This document shows, in pieces, positions 40,255 to 44,725 of a DNA stretch of 48,421 nt. Below the pieces are notes generated by a model. That model ran no database searches, had not been told where the DNA came from, and saw nothing but the letters and a program-made list of their open reading frames with translations. Source of the stretch: Bacteroidota bacterium (GTDB taxonomy: Bacteria; Bacteroidota; Bacteroidia; Chitinophagales; Chitinophagaceae). Position 1 is the stretch's first letter, and each line of letters starts with the position of its first letter. The stretch is from NCBI GenBank assembly GCA_018267545.1, contig JAFDYG010000473.1, forward strand, positions 1 to 48,421, given 5' to 3'. The position numbers and the translations under genes were made by a program.

Positions 40255-40419
40255 ATGCTTATCGATAAAATCCTCAATACGGCCTTTTCATTCGGGGCTG
40301 CAGTCGTCATTTTCGGAGCCTGGTCCAAGATCGAGCACAACGAATACAGCGTCGATACAACAGACCGTCCGGGTGCTCAGCAAAATATTCAGGGTGTAAG
40401 TCGTATCTTGCGGGGATGA
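40255..40419 (+). CDS. GldL-TM1-like membrane microprotein
   Basis: A 54-residue protein with a single hydrophobic helix (about 8-27). The segment NTAFSFGAAVVIFGAWSKIEH resembles the first membrane helix of GldL, the type IX secretion motor protein, in the pattern GAAVVI-x-GA-x-x-K-I-x-H. The second GldL helix and cytoplasmic domain are absent, and no other frame supplies them. Its stop overlaps the start of the amidase gene as ATGA, which strongly supports translation. The ATG at 40255 is preferred over an upstream one at 40228. Confidence 0.6.
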   Translation: MLIDKILNTAFSFGAAVVIFGAWSKIEHNEYSVDTTDRPGAQQNIQGVSRILRG

Positions 40420-41225
40420 AGTATTCCCTTGCTTTTGCTCTTCTTTTGGGGCTGTGTGCCTGTCATCCCAATCCGTACAAGACTACCAACCGGGCCTATA
40501 AAGACCAGGCCCGCGACTACGCCCGCACCCTCCGGCAGAGCCCCCTCGAGACGGGAGCCGATTCGGTCCCGGCCGCTCCCTATTGGGTCGGCACGACCAA
40601 CTTCAACCTGCGCAAGCCGAATTTTGTCATCATTCATCATACCGCACAGAACAGCTGCCCGCAGACCCTGAAAACCTTTACTACGGTGAGCACGCAGGTC
40701 AGCGCGCACTATGTCATTTGTAAAGACGGAACCGTCCACCACATGCTGAATGACTATCTGCGGGCCTGGCAGGCCGGTGTGAGCAAGTGGGGGAATGTAA
40801 CCGATATCAATTCGATCTCGATTGGAATCGAGCTGGATAACAATGGCCATGAGCCTTTTCCGGACACCCAGATCAATAGCCTCCTGCACCTGCTGACCAG
40901 GCTTAAAAAAACGTATAGTATACCTGTTGGTAATTTTATCGGTCATGGCGACATCGCCCCTACCCGGAAGAACGACCCCAATTATTCTTTTCCCTGGAAG
41001 ACGCTGGCGGATGGAGGCTTTGGCAATTGGTATGCGGACACCACGGGTATCGTCCTTCCCCCGGACTTCAGCAGCCTGACCGCCCTGCGGCTGGTAGGCT
41101 ATGACATTCACGATAGCAGCGCCGCAGCGTTGGCCTTCAAGCGGCACTTCGAGCAGGATACCCTGCGTACCTGGGGTGAACCCGAGAAGAAGATTCTCTA
41201 TAGTTTATATCGTAAATACGAGTAA
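40416..41225 (+). CDS. N-acetylmuramoyl-L-alanine amidase (Amidase_2), lipoprotein
   Basis: A 269-residue cell-wall amidase of the AmiD/AmpD type, which cuts the bond between muramic acid and the peptide stem. The zinc site is visible: His74/His75 in VIIHHTA, His177 in GHGDIAPTRKNDP and Asp187 nearby, with the supporting Glu139 in IGIELDNNG. The short signal ends at Cys16 (LCAC), a possible lipidation site, so it would sit in the outer membrane facing the periplasm. A C-terminal 60-residue helical extension (about 205-269) is a likely peptidoglycan-binding part. Coupled to the microprotein upstream and one base before the GNAT gene. Confidence 0.9.
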   Translation: MKYSLAFALLLGLCACHPNPYKTTNRAYKDQARDYARTLRQSPLETGADSVPAAPYWVGTTNFNLRKPNFVIIHHTAQNSCPQTLKTFTTVSTQVSAHYVICKDGTVHHMLNDYLRAWQAGVSKWGNVTDINSISIGIELDNNGHEPFPDTQINSLLHLLTRLKKTYSIPVGNFIGHGDIAPTRKNDPNYSFPWKTLADGGFGNWYADTTGIVLPPDFSSLTALRLVGYDIHDSSAAALAFKRHFEQDTLRTWGEPEKKILYSLYRKYE

Positions 41226-41226
41226 T

Positions 41227-41676
41227 ATGCTTTCTATTCTTCGAACCAATTCCGAAAACCCCGACTTCCAGGAGCTTGTCCGGGCGCTGGACAAATATCT
41301 GGCTTTTTTGGATGGGGATGAACATGCCTTTTATGCCCAGTTCAATAAGACAGCCATGCTGCCGGAGGTCGTCGTGGCTTATGAGGACGGCATGCCGGTA
41401 GGCTGCGGGGCTATCAGGGCTTTTTCGCCGGAAGCTATGGAGGTTAAACGTATGTATGTATTGCCTGAGCTTCGCGGAAAGGGGATCGCCACCGCCGTTC
41501 TGTGTGAGCTGGAAGCATGGTCCAGAGAATTGGGTTACGAAAAATGTGTGCTGGAGACGGGAAAAAGACAGCCCGAGGCGATCGGGCTGTATAAGAAGAA
41601 TGGTTATTCGGATACGCCGAACTACGGACAATATATCGGCGTCGAAAACAGCGTTTGCTTCGAAAAGAAATTATAA
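41227..41676 (+). CDS. GNAT family N-acetyltransferase
   Basis: A 149-residue acetyltransferase. The acetyl-CoA site is clear: VKRMYVLPELRGKGIATAVLCELEAW with the R/Q-x-x-G-x-G/A loop RGKGIA, followed by LETGKRQPEAIGLYKKNGY. The substrate is unknown. The ATG at 41227 lies one base after the amidase stop, so the gene is the last of a three-gene unit beginning with the microprotein. Its stop overlaps the convergent amidohydrolase gene by six bases. Confidence 0.92.
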   Translation: MLSILRTNSENPDFQELVRALDKYLAFLDGDEHAFYAQFNKTAMLPEVVVAYEDGMPVGCGAIRAFSPEAMEVKRMYVLPELRGKGIATAVLCELEAWSRELGYEKCVLETGKRQPEAIGLYKKNGYSDTPNYGQYIGVENSVCFEKKL

Positions 41677-42945
41677 TCCTCCATGTGTAGTCGCCGGTAC
41701 GGGTGTACGCGGCGCGATGATGGGATTAGCAATCCCATTCAAATCATAAACGATCTTCCCATCCCGGATGGTCATCTCGCATTCCAGCTTCTGATTGCCT
41801 TCGATCTTTGTTCCCACGTAATCGAAGAAACCAAAGCGGCCCTTTCTCAGACCCAGGATGGCGACATCCGCAATTCCGCCGACCGAGAGATTCCCCAGCT
41901 CTTCGTGCTTGATCTCGCGGGCGGGGTTCCAGGTCGTGGTCGCCACCACCGATTCCAGGTCCATCCCCATTGCCATAAATTTCGACATCAGGTTCAGCAG
42001 GTCTTTCATAGCGCCATTGACGTTTCGGGTGTGGATATCCGTACTCAGGGAGTTGGGGGTAAAACCACTCTTGAGAGCAGGAATAGCCTGCGAGAAGGCG
42101 AAGCTGATCTCGCCATAACCTACATCGAAGATGGTGCCTTTTTTCTGCGCCTCACGGACGAAGGGCTTGAGCGTCCTGGTAGCAGGGTCGACGATCGGTT
42201 CCCTGCTTTTCAGCTCGCCGAAACAGTGGGTAAAGATATCCCCCGGCCGCAGATGCTTGAAGAAGAGATCGTTGATCGATAAGGGCGGAGTGCTGCCGCC
42301 AAAGTCTACCATGACGGGGATGTCGGCTATGTTTCCTGCCTTTACGGCCTCGTCGACCGGTGTCCATTCGGGTCCTGAATAATGAGCGACCTTTACACCC
42401 ACGACATAGTCGTGATATTGCCGGGCGACCTGTCCGGTCAGCTTCCCATCCATATCCCTGGTATCCTGCTCATATCCATTACCACGCATGCCCGAGCCGA
42501 CGATATTTAAAAAAGCCATTACCCGGGTGCGCGACATGTCGATCACCTGCTTTTTAAAGACAGGGAACTCGCGCCAGCCCGAAGAACCGGCATCGACAAT
42601 GGTCGTCACGCCCGTCCGGAAGGTAAATCCATCGGGAACGATCGCTTCGACGCCTCCGGCATATTGCCGGCTGGGGTCGGTTCCAAAGTAGACGTGCGTA
42701 TGAATATCGATGAGCCCCGCCATGACGTATAAGCCACGGGCATCCACGACCTGGATGGCCTGGCTTGGGTCGATGTGTCGTTCCATGCGGACGATCTTGC
42801 CGTCATTGATGGCGATATCGAGGCTGTCGTGGAGTTTATTTTTGGCGTCGATCACATACCCGCCTTTGATCAGGATCGAATAGGGTTGTGTGTGCGCCCC
42901 GTGGGCGGCGCACACAAATAAAAATAGGAACCACAGTTTGTGCAT
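41671..42945 (-). CDS. Exported amidohydrolase/deacetylase (dihydroorotase-like)
   Basis: A 424-residue metal hydrolase of the amidohydrolase superfamily with a Sec signal peptide (about 1-20, ending HGAHTQ). Metal ligands are His82 and His84 in DIHTHVYFG, a probable carboxylated Lys in VVGVKVAHYSG, the His of IFTHCFGE, and the Asp of LSTDIHTRN. The family includes N-acyl-D-amino acid deacylases and related enzymes often encoded beside a SelA-like PLP enzyme. It is the last gene of the operon 44725-41671, 12 bases after the PLP gene, and should act in the periplasm. Confidence 0.9.
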   Translation of the reverse strand: MHKLWFLFLFVCAAHGAHTQPYSILIKGGYVIDAKNKLHDSLDIAINDGKIVRMERHIDPSQAIQVVDARGLYVMAGLIDIHTHVYFGTDPSRQYAGGVEAIVPDGFTFRTGVTTIVDAGSSGWREFPVFKKQVIDMSRTRVMAFLNIVGSGMRGNGYEQDTRDMDGKLTGQVARQYHDYVVGVKVAHYSGPEWTPVDEAVKAGNIADIPVMVDFGGSTPPLSINDLFFKHLRPGDIFTHCFGELKSREPIVDPATRTLKPFVREAQKKGTIFDVGYGEISFAFSQAIPALKSGFTPNSLSTDIHTRNVNGAMKDLLNLMSKFMAMGMDLESVVATTTWNPAREIKHEELGNLSVGGIADVAILGLRKGRFGFFDYVGTKIEGNQKLECEMTIRDGKIVYDLNGIANPIIAPRTPVPATTHGGL

Positions 42946-42957
42946 GTAGGGAGGTTT

Positions 42958-44208
42958 TTAAGCCTTGGATAGTTCTTCTTTGAGACGAGCCGCTACGATC
43001 TTCTCCTGGCCGGGCTTTAGCATCCAAACCGTCACCGCGATATGATTCTGCTGAACGTCGGCTATTTCGATCGAGGGATTACCGTTGCGCATCCGGTCCT
43101 GGAGGTCTTTCCCTGAAACCTTGACCTGCTGAGGGTCCCAGTTGATCTGCAGTGTCGGTGTGACATTTCCGAGGGTGGGTACTTTTATAGAAGTCGTTAC
43201 CCCTTTCACCGAATTGACGGCTTGCTGGATAACGCTGGTGGCGGCTTCCCATTCCTTCCATTCCTTGTCGTGGTCGCGGGCGATATAATTCTCCAGCGCC
43301 ACATACATGCCGAGCACTTCTTCCTTGTTGACCTTAAAGCCCCGTCCGATGTTAAAGCCGCGGGGAGGCATGTGGAGGCGGGCGGCAGTGACGATGTCCT
43401 TCTTGCCCATGAGGAGGCCGGCGCTTTGGGGGCCGCGGATAGCTTTACCGCCTGAGATCGCCACGAAGCTAAAGCCCATGTCGTTAAACTTCCAGAGATT
43501 GGATACCGGGGGGACGTCGGCGGCTATGTCGATGGACGTGGGGATGCCGTGCTTCTTGCCGATCTCCACCCATTCCTGGTGCATGATCTTGCCTTTGTCT
43601 GCCTCGATATTCAGGAAGTGCATGAGCGCCGTGCGTTCGTTGATGGCGGCTTCGAGCTCTTCGCGAGTTTCGATATAGATCAGCTTGCATCCGGTGTTTT
43701 TCAGTGCGTGGTTATACACGATCTCGTGCGACTTTTGGATGATCACTTCGGATTTCATCCCCGTTCCGTCGAGGTGCGGCAGGGCTTCGACCTTCTTCTG
43801 ATCCATGCCGGTAAGGATACCCGCCAGGCCCAATGTCATAGCGGAAAAGGCGCCCGAGGTAACGACCGCTGCTTCGGAATGCACGAGGGCGGCGATCTTC
43901 TCCCCTACCTTATCCTGTACTTCGTCGAGCATACAAAATTGCAGGGCGGCTCCCTGGATCGTTTCTACGACGTAGTCGTGCATGAGGGAGCCCGTCATGG
44001 CGGTATAGGTGCCGGCGGCATTGATAAACGTGCGGATGCCGAGCTCTTTAAAAAGGTCTCTTTTTAAAGGAGGCGCAGAACCAAAAGGCTCCGGGGCCAT
44101 CGGGGGTGTCGAAGCCAGGGCGTTGGCGGCAGTAGGTAATGATAGGCTGATGGCTCCTCCGGTGAGGGAGAAGACGGAAAGATATTTGAAGAGTTCTCTT
44201 CTTTGCAT
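42958..44208 (-). CDS. Tat-exported SelA-like PLP-dependent enzyme
   Basis: A 416-residue fold-type I PLP enzyme resembling SelA and D-glucosaminate-6-phosphate ammonia-lyase (DgaE). Asp227 in SIDIAAD should contact the cofactor ring nitrogen and Lys255 in ISGGKAIRGPQSAG should form the Schiff base; AAGTYTAMTGS and VTSGAFSAM are the N-terminal substrate and phosphate loops. The N-terminus MQRRELFKYL, a hydrophobic stretch and an ANALAS cleavage-like site form a twin-arginine signal, which suits a cofactor-loaded protein. Relatives are usually cytoplasmic, so export is the notable point. It sits between the RidA and amidohydrolase genes with 28 and 12 bases of spacing. Confidence 0.88.
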   Translation of the reverse strand: MQRRELFKYLSVFSLTGGAISLSLPTAANALASTPPMAPEPFGSAPPLKRDLFKELGIRTFINAAGTYTAMTGSLMHDYVVETIQGAALQFCMLDEVQDKVGEKIAALVHSEAAVVTSGAFSAMTLGLAGILTGMDQKKVEALPHLDGTGMKSEVIIQKSHEIVYNHALKNTGCKLIYIETREELEAAINERTALMHFLNIEADKGKIMHQEWVEIGKKHGIPTSIDIAADVPPVSNLWKFNDMGFSFVAISGGKAIRGPQSAGLLMGKKDIVTAARLHMPPRGFNIGRGFKVNKEEVLGMYVALENYIARDHDKEWKEWEAATSVIQQAVNSVKGVTTSIKVPTLGNVTPTLQINWDPQQVKVSGKDLQDRMRNGNPSIEIADVQQNHIAVTVWMLKPGQEKIVAARLKEELSKA

Positions 44209-44236
44209 AAACAGTTAATTTGAAAATGACGGAAGA

Positions 44237-44725
44237 CTAGACGTAGGCGATGCAATCCATTTCAACCAGGGAATTGCCAGGCACGCCGCCCTTGGCGACG
44301 GCCACCGTGGTGCGAACGGGGGGCTTTTTACCGAAACGACCTTTATAAACCTCGTTCATGCCCTGATAGTCTGCTATATCATTCAGAAAGACGGATACTT
44401 TTAAAACTTTTTCCATGGATGAACCGGCGGCAATGAGCTCTTTCTCGAGCTCTTTCAGCACGATTTCGGTGTGCGCCTTGATCTCGAAGGGCTCCACATG
44501 CGCACCCTTCCCGGCGATGAATACCAACCCGTTGAATTTTGTCGCACCGGAGAAAAGGGGAACTTCCTGGTCTTCGACGACGTTGAAGACTTCTTTTTCG
44601 GCGGGCTTGGCGGGAACTTCGGGCTGTGTTTTGGCGGCTTCGGCCTTGGCGATCACACCGGCTCCGGCGACGCCGGTCAGGGAAAGGAGGATTCTTTTAA
44701 GGACGTTTCTTCTTTGCTTTTCCAT
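44237..44725 (-). CDS. Exported RidA (YjgF/UK114) family imine deaminase
   Basis: A 162-residue RidA protein with about 45 extra N-terminal residues. The core (about 46-162) has KFNGLVFIAGKGA, VLKVSVFLNDIADY, the key Arg138 in PPVRTTV and Glu155 in LVEMDC, residues required by enzymatically active RidA members to hydrolyse enamine/imine products of PLP enzymes. The N-terminus has a twin-arginine-like QRRNVLKR, then a hydrophobic LLSLTGVAGAGVIA and AxA-like sites, so it should be exported. It is the first gene of the operon with the SelA-like enzyme, whose reactive product it could remove. Confidence 0.88.
   Translation of the reverse strand: MEKQRRNVLKRILLSLTGVAGAGVIAKAEAAKTQPEVPAKPAEKEVFNVVEDQEVPLFSGATKFNGLVFIAGKGAHVEPFEIKAHTEIVLKELEKELIAAGSSMEKVLKVSVFLNDIADYQGMNEVYKGRFGKKPPVRTTVAVAKGGVPGNSLVEMDCIAYV

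Follow-up and report, generated by a model that had tools for sequence, protein, structure and literature searches.

A conserved operon for an export-type RidA, a DgaE-like PLP enzyme and an amidohydrolase in Bacteroidota

RidA proteins and the amino-acid-type eliminations of pyridoxal 5'-phosphate (PLP) enzymes are regarded as cytoplasmic housekeeping. Here we analysed a 48,421-nt contig of a Bacteroidota bacterium of the Chitinophagaceae (JAFDYG010000473.1, assembly GCA_018267545.1; this whole stretch is called the window) that carries an operon for a RidA-type protein, a SelA-like PLP enzyme and an amidohydrolase, all with export-type N-termini. The strongest described parallel is the ong cluster for oxidative chitin catabolism of Pseudoalteromonas prydzensis, in which deletion of the deacetylase, the PLP deaminase or the RidA abolishes growth on GlcNAc1A; the RidA, OngD, is essential, and the available part of the paper leaves its role open (PMC9537276). 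Like the window trio, ong joins an amidohydrolase-type deacetylase (OngB, whose structure is the subject of PMC12017989), a PLP-dependent ammonia-releasing enzyme (OngC) and a RidA (OngD) in one cluster. However, OngB and OngC are predicted to be cytoplasmic in the available description, whereas the window proteins have export-type N-termini. OngC is a fold-type III enzyme, while the window PLP enzyme was modelled as a DgaE-like fold-type I enzyme and does not belong to the OngC type. OngB is D-aminoacylase-like and the window amidohydrolase is of the PRK09237 type; moreover, ong is tied to chitin oxidation, whereas the window's own genome has no match to an AA10 lytic polysaccharide monooxygenase (LPMO). 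As the folds of the two PLP enzymes differ, the likeness to ong would be a convergence.

DgaE is the second system to compare. The available part of its description reports that the enamine receives a proton from His-163 before it is released, and that manual docking put Arg301, Arg332 and Arg346 at the phosphate (PMC9529869). The window enzyme is like DgaE in fold and PLP lysine, but differs in its export-type N-terminus, its scores below the family cut-offs, the lack of His-162/163 and of Arg301/332/346, and its RidA partner. A plasmid of Bartonella sp. HY406 (L116) carries a DgaE-type enzyme next to an amidohydrolase to which NCBI gives the same name as the window's, together with a KDGP aldolase; unlike the window it has phosphotransferase system (PTS) regulator and ptsP genes, keeps His-163 and the three arginines, and has no noted export and no listed RidA. 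Cap15 (8t7j), an enzyme of antibiotic biosynthesis whose PDB title calls it oxygen- and PLP-dependent, matches the window enzyme structurally about as well as DgaE. There is also precedent for Tat (twin-arginine translocation) export of a cofactor-loaded PLP enzyme, as proposed for the window protein: PvdN and PtaA fold with their cofactor and are exported by Tat (PMC6206403), although their role is siderophore tailoring (pyoverdine), their reactions are different and the available part of that paper mentions no RidA. Among the matches listed by literature searches, which did not cover subscription journals, no title or abstract described an exported RidA or this operon, and a term search of the main text of a comparative-genomics paper on Rid proteins (PMC4433059) did not find 'signal', 'periplasm' or 'amidohydrolase'.

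Judged from the sequences, the most fitting description of the trio would be known amino-sugar-acid catabolism in a periplasmic version, marked by an exported RidA, which is unusual. We hold with moderate confidence that it is a periplasmic module for the degradation of N-acylated D-2-amino-3-hydroxy acids, amino-sugar acids of the aldonic type being the most likely. Gene order, co-occurrence, the conservation of export-type N-termini and of catalytic residues, and the lack of the phosphate site are computed results.

Open reading frames (ORFs) and translations were read from the minus strand. The first gene of the trio (44237-44725, minus strand) encodes a predicted exported RidA-type protein of 162 residues, with the start MEKQRRNVLKRILLS followed by a hydrophobic stretch. 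After 28 bases comes the gene of a predicted exported DgaE/SelA-like fold-type I PLP enzyme of 416 residues (42958-44208, minus strand; start MQRRELFKYLSVF) and, after a further 12 bases, that of a predicted exported amidohydrolase/deacetylase family metallohydrolase of 424 residues (41671-42945, minus strand; start MHKLWFLFLFVCAAHG). The amidohydrolase gene shares 6 bases with the end of a GNAT ORF of the opposite strand, and a gene with an MDMPI_N domain (45720-44854, minus strand) lies 128 bases upstream of RidA. A sequence-only reading of the window had called this a three-gene operon and had named Arg138 and Glu155 of RidA and Lys255 and Asp227 of the PLP enzyme as catalytic; the ORF calls reproduced its coordinates and both gaps, and all four residues are where it had put them. 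Arg138 and Glu155 were kept in 54 of 56 RidA rows (the remaining two are cut at the locus end), and Asp227 and the PLP lysine Lys255 in 88 of 88 SelA-like rows. RidA scored 70.4 bits against PF01042 (cut-off 27.3), within the Pfam threshold, and 66.5 bits against TIGR00004, the detoxifying hydrolase model, below its curated cut-off of 106.25. The amidohydrolase belongs to NF006689/PRK09237 (434 bits, cut-off 371); H82, H84 and D303 were conserved in 74 of 75 rows and K185 and H240 in 75 of 75, and we take these five residues, from their roles in the amidohydrolase superfamily, to be candidate metal ligands. Activities on acetyl-mandelate and N-acetyl-D-serine belong to the background of the cog3964 group; a literature search gave no paper on the activity of cog3964 amidohydrolases by title or abstract. 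The SelA-like gene and the amidohydrolase are single-copy in the genome, and its other RidAs are distant (33% and 30% identity; E 0.001).

Co-occurrence was analysed in 298 genomes of the order, the window's own genome counted (E 1e-20 for SelA-like and RidA, 1e-40 for the amidohydrolase). The SelA-like protein was present in 11 genomes and the amidohydrolase and RidA in 12 each, each spread over 9 of the 140 genera. None of the three genes was present in three further genomes of the same genus, which indicates a patchy distribution. The three genome sets were identical save for one genome (G263) with only RidA and the amidohydrolase, and the trio was on one contig in each of the 11 genomes holding all three. 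In G263 the match to RidA, on the minus strand, begins at contig base 7, and the missing neighbour is therefore probably explained by the contig end. In addition, 78 loci (10 of them below 12 kb) were gathered from named genomes by the SelA-like protein; as they were chosen by one of the three genes, the 298-genome sample is the fairer test. By protein matches, 56 loci had all three genes, 6 the SelA-like gene and the amidohydrolase, 15 the SelA-like gene alone and 1 the SelA-like gene with a weak Rid match; by clustered genes, some of which were lost in gene calling, the numbers were 50, 10 and 16, with 2 others. RidA, SelA-like gene and amidohydrolase were directly consecutive in this order on one strand in 20 of the 78 loci, and RidA and the amidohydrolase were both within 3 kb of the SelA-like gene in 35. 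With the window included, RidA immediately preceded the SelA-like gene in 34 gene pairs (gaps from -50 to 290), and the SelA-like gene immediately preceded the amidohydrolase in 55 (gaps from -76 to 213). The three genes are syntenic and co-occur, in agreement with the earlier proposal, which had named synteny as its check.

Clustering left 16 loci without partners; twelve of them are from Dyadobacter or Larkinella, and 14 (L062, L066, L073, L075-L077 and L081-L088) encode SelA-like enzymes of 425-442 residues with a twin-arginine (RR) start and no clustered RidA or amidohydrolase in the stretch. Among these, L081 has a weak 30-bit Rid match. A longer SelA-like paralogue (about 530-575 residues, RR start, 33-35% identical to the window protein) was found immediately before an amidohydrolase gene (L045:10096-11724, L032:9310-10941, L067:9804-11525 and L098:7971-9569).

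Export was scored by a home-made signal rule (positive N-terminus and uncharged hydrophobic 12-mer). Among the first 60 codons, starts that gave an RR motif were preferred, with equal freedom for every group, and rows incomplete at the 5' end were excluded. The RR motif was present in 88 of 88 SelA-like and 53 of 56 RidA rows, compared to 2 of 75 amidohydrolase rows, of which 73 were signal-like. Elsewhere it was found in 2/35 rows of a GSDH-like sugar dehydrogenase with a cytochrome c domain, 1/21 of cluster 4 and 1/19 of CBM9, and in none of the other ten groups; the thiolase, PF14588, HxlR, DsbA-like and response-regulator groups gave 0/37. The RR call is specific, unlike the general signal-like call, which is weak and also passes probably cytoplasmic groups (thiolase 4/6, PF14588 Rid 6/7). 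RR is missing from three RidA rows, in L069, L074 and L078, and all three loci have another RidA that bears it. Shuffled N-termini (chosen starts) showed the RR pattern in 1.0% of cases for SelA-like and 0.2% for RidA; the corresponding P values (9e-18 and 3e-20) ignore phylogeny and linkage and were not used. Milder hydrophobicity is expected for Tat than for Sec signals, and the median of the hydrophobic stretch was 1.58 and 1.80 in the two RR families, compared to 2.52 in the amidohydrolase. The genome carries TatC, so that RR motif, hydrophobic stretch and Tat machinery are all present by this rule.

The N-termini also extend beyond those of solved relatives. RidA residue 55 aligns to residue 14 of 2dyy, which leaves a Tat-type extension of about 41 residues (44603-44725, minus strand); residue 51 of the PLP enzyme aligns to residue 4 of 7lc0, and its Tat-type residues 1-41 (44086-44208, minus strand) have a model confidence below 50; and residue 23 of the amidohydrolase aligns to residue 4 of 8je0, which leaves a Sec-type extension of about 19 residues (42889-42945, minus strand). 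The assignment of RidA and the PLP enzyme to Tat and of the amidohydrolase to Sec, first made from the window alone, was upheld by the home-made rule, and the lack of such signals in homologues, which would have spoken against it, was not observed.

The PLP enzyme had no Pfam match at E 0.01. Its best family matches were the DgaE models, both below cut-off (TIGR01437, 165.3 bits, cut-off 385.3; NF047797, 126.7 bits, cut-off 600), and these matched 32 of 32 family members scanned. A structure model from 32 sequences (mean predicted local distance difference test, pLDDT, 87.2) and the sequence itself both gave DgaE (7lc0) as the first hit by E-value and Cap15 (8t7j) as the second. Selenocysteine synthase function was rejected (TIGR00474, 26.2 bits, cut-off 267.9; SelA structures rank under DgaE and Cap15). 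Consequently, of the 'SelA-like PLP enzyme' of the sequence-only reading the PLP enzyme stands and the SelA identity does not, the protein being DgaE-like without the DgaE phosphate site. In model and alignment it has the fold and the PLP lysine of DgaE, with K255 aligned to Lys-213 of the 7lc0 chain; the catalytic lysine is numbered Lys-217 in the available part of the DgaE paper (PMC9529869).

The active site was compared in an alignment of 25 proteins, which is gappy toward the C-terminus, near the last two arginines. The window enzyme reads E/A at DgaE positions 162/163 and T/A/W at Arg301/332/346. None of the nine export-type rows (the window, six Bacteroidota and two Granulicella) had a His at 162 or 163, and none had more than one of the three phosphate-site arginines in this gappy C-terminal part. 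In the wider set, His was found at the position aligned to 162 in 2 of 88 rows (second copies in L047 and L048) and H210 in 80 of 88; another proton donor is therefore possible, and H210 could substitute for His-163.

The window operon itself lacks the further genes that surround the trio in relatives, and the genome has relatives of several of them. Neighbour families were named from one representative each, and SusD by the look of its sequence and its position. Among the 78 loci we found the GSDH-like sugar dehydrogenase with a cytochrome c domain in 35, cluster 4 in 21, an SBF importer in 20, CBM9 in 20, an exported-type RraA-like aldolase in 16, SusD in 16, cytochrome c in 16, SusC in 15, a PF10282 lactonase in 12, an SGL lactonase in 9 and a PF14588 Rid in 7. 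RraA-like was directly followed by SBF in 13 of its 16 loci. For cluster 4 (e.g. L060:11387-12868), the one member searched gave no match to Pfam or to PDB sequences; another, longer member, in L043, has a cytochrome c domain, and its remainder gives us the impression of a soluble sugar dehydrogenase, so that the family may be one of sugar dehydrogenases. A plasmid of Granulicella tundricola (Acidobacteriota) has in a row RraA, two SelA-like genes flanking RidA, the amidohydrolase, a lactonase and a BBE/FAD oxidase, with RR starts, by eye, on both SelA-like proteins and RidA and none on the amidohydrolase. In haloarchaeal relatives, annotated Rid genes were close by in three of five stretches, one of them with a glucose 1-dehydrogenase, and the available part of a study of chitin-using haloarchaea reports DgaE-like, glucose dehydrogenase and RutC-family genes in chitinase gene clusters (PMC12343721). 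On a plasmid of the haloarchaeon Natrononativus (L124:2566-6200), D-aminoacylase, fumarylacetoacetate hydrolase-family and DgaE-like genes are consecutive, with no Rid listed in the stretch.

Another contig of the window's genome (C132; L109:4860-14512) has, on one strand, SusC, SusD, an FGGY kinase, an exported-type RraA-like protein, an RR-bearing enolase-superfamily protein and SBF, and looks like a second periplasmic sugar-acid pathway. The RraA and SBF end module behind either an acid-sugar-dehydratase-like enzyme or the SelA-like trio suggests that both deliver 2-keto-3-deoxy acids. The genome also has a relative of the GSDH-cytochrome protein (C244) and full-length PF10282 matches (C398 and C363). 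LPMO-driven chitin oxidation of the AA10 type was rejected for this genome, as the search gave no match.

In the proposed phosphate-free pathway, the Sec-exported amidohydrolase would take off the acyl group and free the amine. The PLP enzyme, which would fold with PLP in the cytoplasm and leave by Tat, would then eliminate water from the free amino acid, as its DgaE family suggests, to give an enamine/imine, and the Tat-exported RidA would speed its conversion to a 2-keto-3-deoxy acid and ammonia. This order of amidohydrolase, PLP ammonia-lyase and RidA had been anticipated by the sequence-only reading; it fits the families and would parallel the ong functions one by one. In relatives, the exported RraA-like aldolase would cleave the keto acid and the SBF-type carrier would import the product, and in some of them the sugar would be turned into the acid by periplasmic sugar dehydrogenases with cytochrome c, together with lactonases. 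More tentatively, Bacteroidota and Acidobacteriota may share a non-phosphorylating Entner-Doudoroff-like route for amino-sugar acids with oxidation, lactone opening, deacylation, PLP elimination, RidA and aldol cleavage all periplasmic, in which a PLP enzyme without its own proton donor passes its enamine to an exported RidA. To our knowledge, a dedicated exported RidA would be the first.

The same chemistry would also serve N-acyl-D-amino acids with a beta-hydroxyl (D-serine/D-threonine type, e.g. from peptidoglycan or lipopeptides), degraded to simple 2-keto acids, which we consider unlikely. In its favour, a phosphate clamp is missing from the window protein, D-serine and D-threonine are likewise deaminated by OngC in the available part of PMC9537276, and an AmpD-like amidase gene lies nearby (40416-41225); however, that gene is on the strand opposite to the trio and clusters only with the nearest relative (L019) among the 78 loci, and the genes next to the trio in relatives (sugar dehydrogenase, lactonase, SusC/D) indicate sugar acids. 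It is less probable still that the PLP enzyme is an oxygen-dependent oxidase/decarboxylase of the Cap15 kind, with RidA acting on an imine that arises oxidatively. An aerobe has an oxic periplasm, and Cap15, second by E-value, was slightly better than 7lc0 in target-normalised TM-score (0.85-0.88 vs. 0.86, about equal) and root-mean-square deviation (2.3-2.7 vs. 3.1); by contrast, 7lc0 leads by E-value in both searches, the DgaE models match every family member scanned, and an oxidase would leave the adjoining 2-keto-3-deoxy-acid aldolase of relatives unexplained. That the N-termini are non-functional signals or the proteins cytoplasmic, in an ordinary cytoplasmic amino-acid route, is very improbable, because, although the general signal-like call of the home-made rule lets probably cytoplasmic groups through, the RR motif itself is specific, near universal in two families and present in a second phylum, and the proteins have extra N-terminal residues relative to solved relatives.

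We also compared the loss of His-163 with the presence of Rid genes. Eleven of the 25 aligned proteins have His at 163: DgaE, nine proteins of Rhizobium, Ensifer, Mesorhizobium, Bartonella, Caballeronia and Sagittula, and one of Streptomyces (one residue inserted). Among the 14 without it, the stretch had a Rid gene for 10 and none for four (L030, L088, L124 and L127). Among the 11 with it, RidA was annotated in L099, L121 and L126, and none is listed for L101 and L116; five stretches are unannotated, and a search with the window RidA found none in these five, yet missed the three annotated RidAs and so says nothing. The dga operon, as described in the available part of PMC9529869, names no Rid gene. 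A rule by which His-163 loss goes with a RidA neighbour was ruled out by exceptions both ways.

Several observations weigh against a periplasmic amino-sugar-acid module. In 15 of the 78 loci (16 by clustering) the SelA-like gene has neither RidA nor the amidohydrolase in the examined stretch, and the oxygen-dependent Cap15 is as close as DgaE by TM-score. The substrate was deduced from neighbours that are missing in the window's own operon, and, as the genome has no AA10 LPMO, chitin oxidation in the ong style is not a likely source. Finally, a need for RidA arising from the loss of His-163 is no more than a suggestion.

An exported RidA that is conserved and coupled to a single exported PLP enzyme would offer a clean setting for probing the purpose of RidA, a question likewise unanswered for the OngD of the chitin pathway in the available part of PMC9537276. 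The trio suggests that these bacteria may carry out sugar-acid catabolism outside the inner membrane, where phosphorylation is unavailable.

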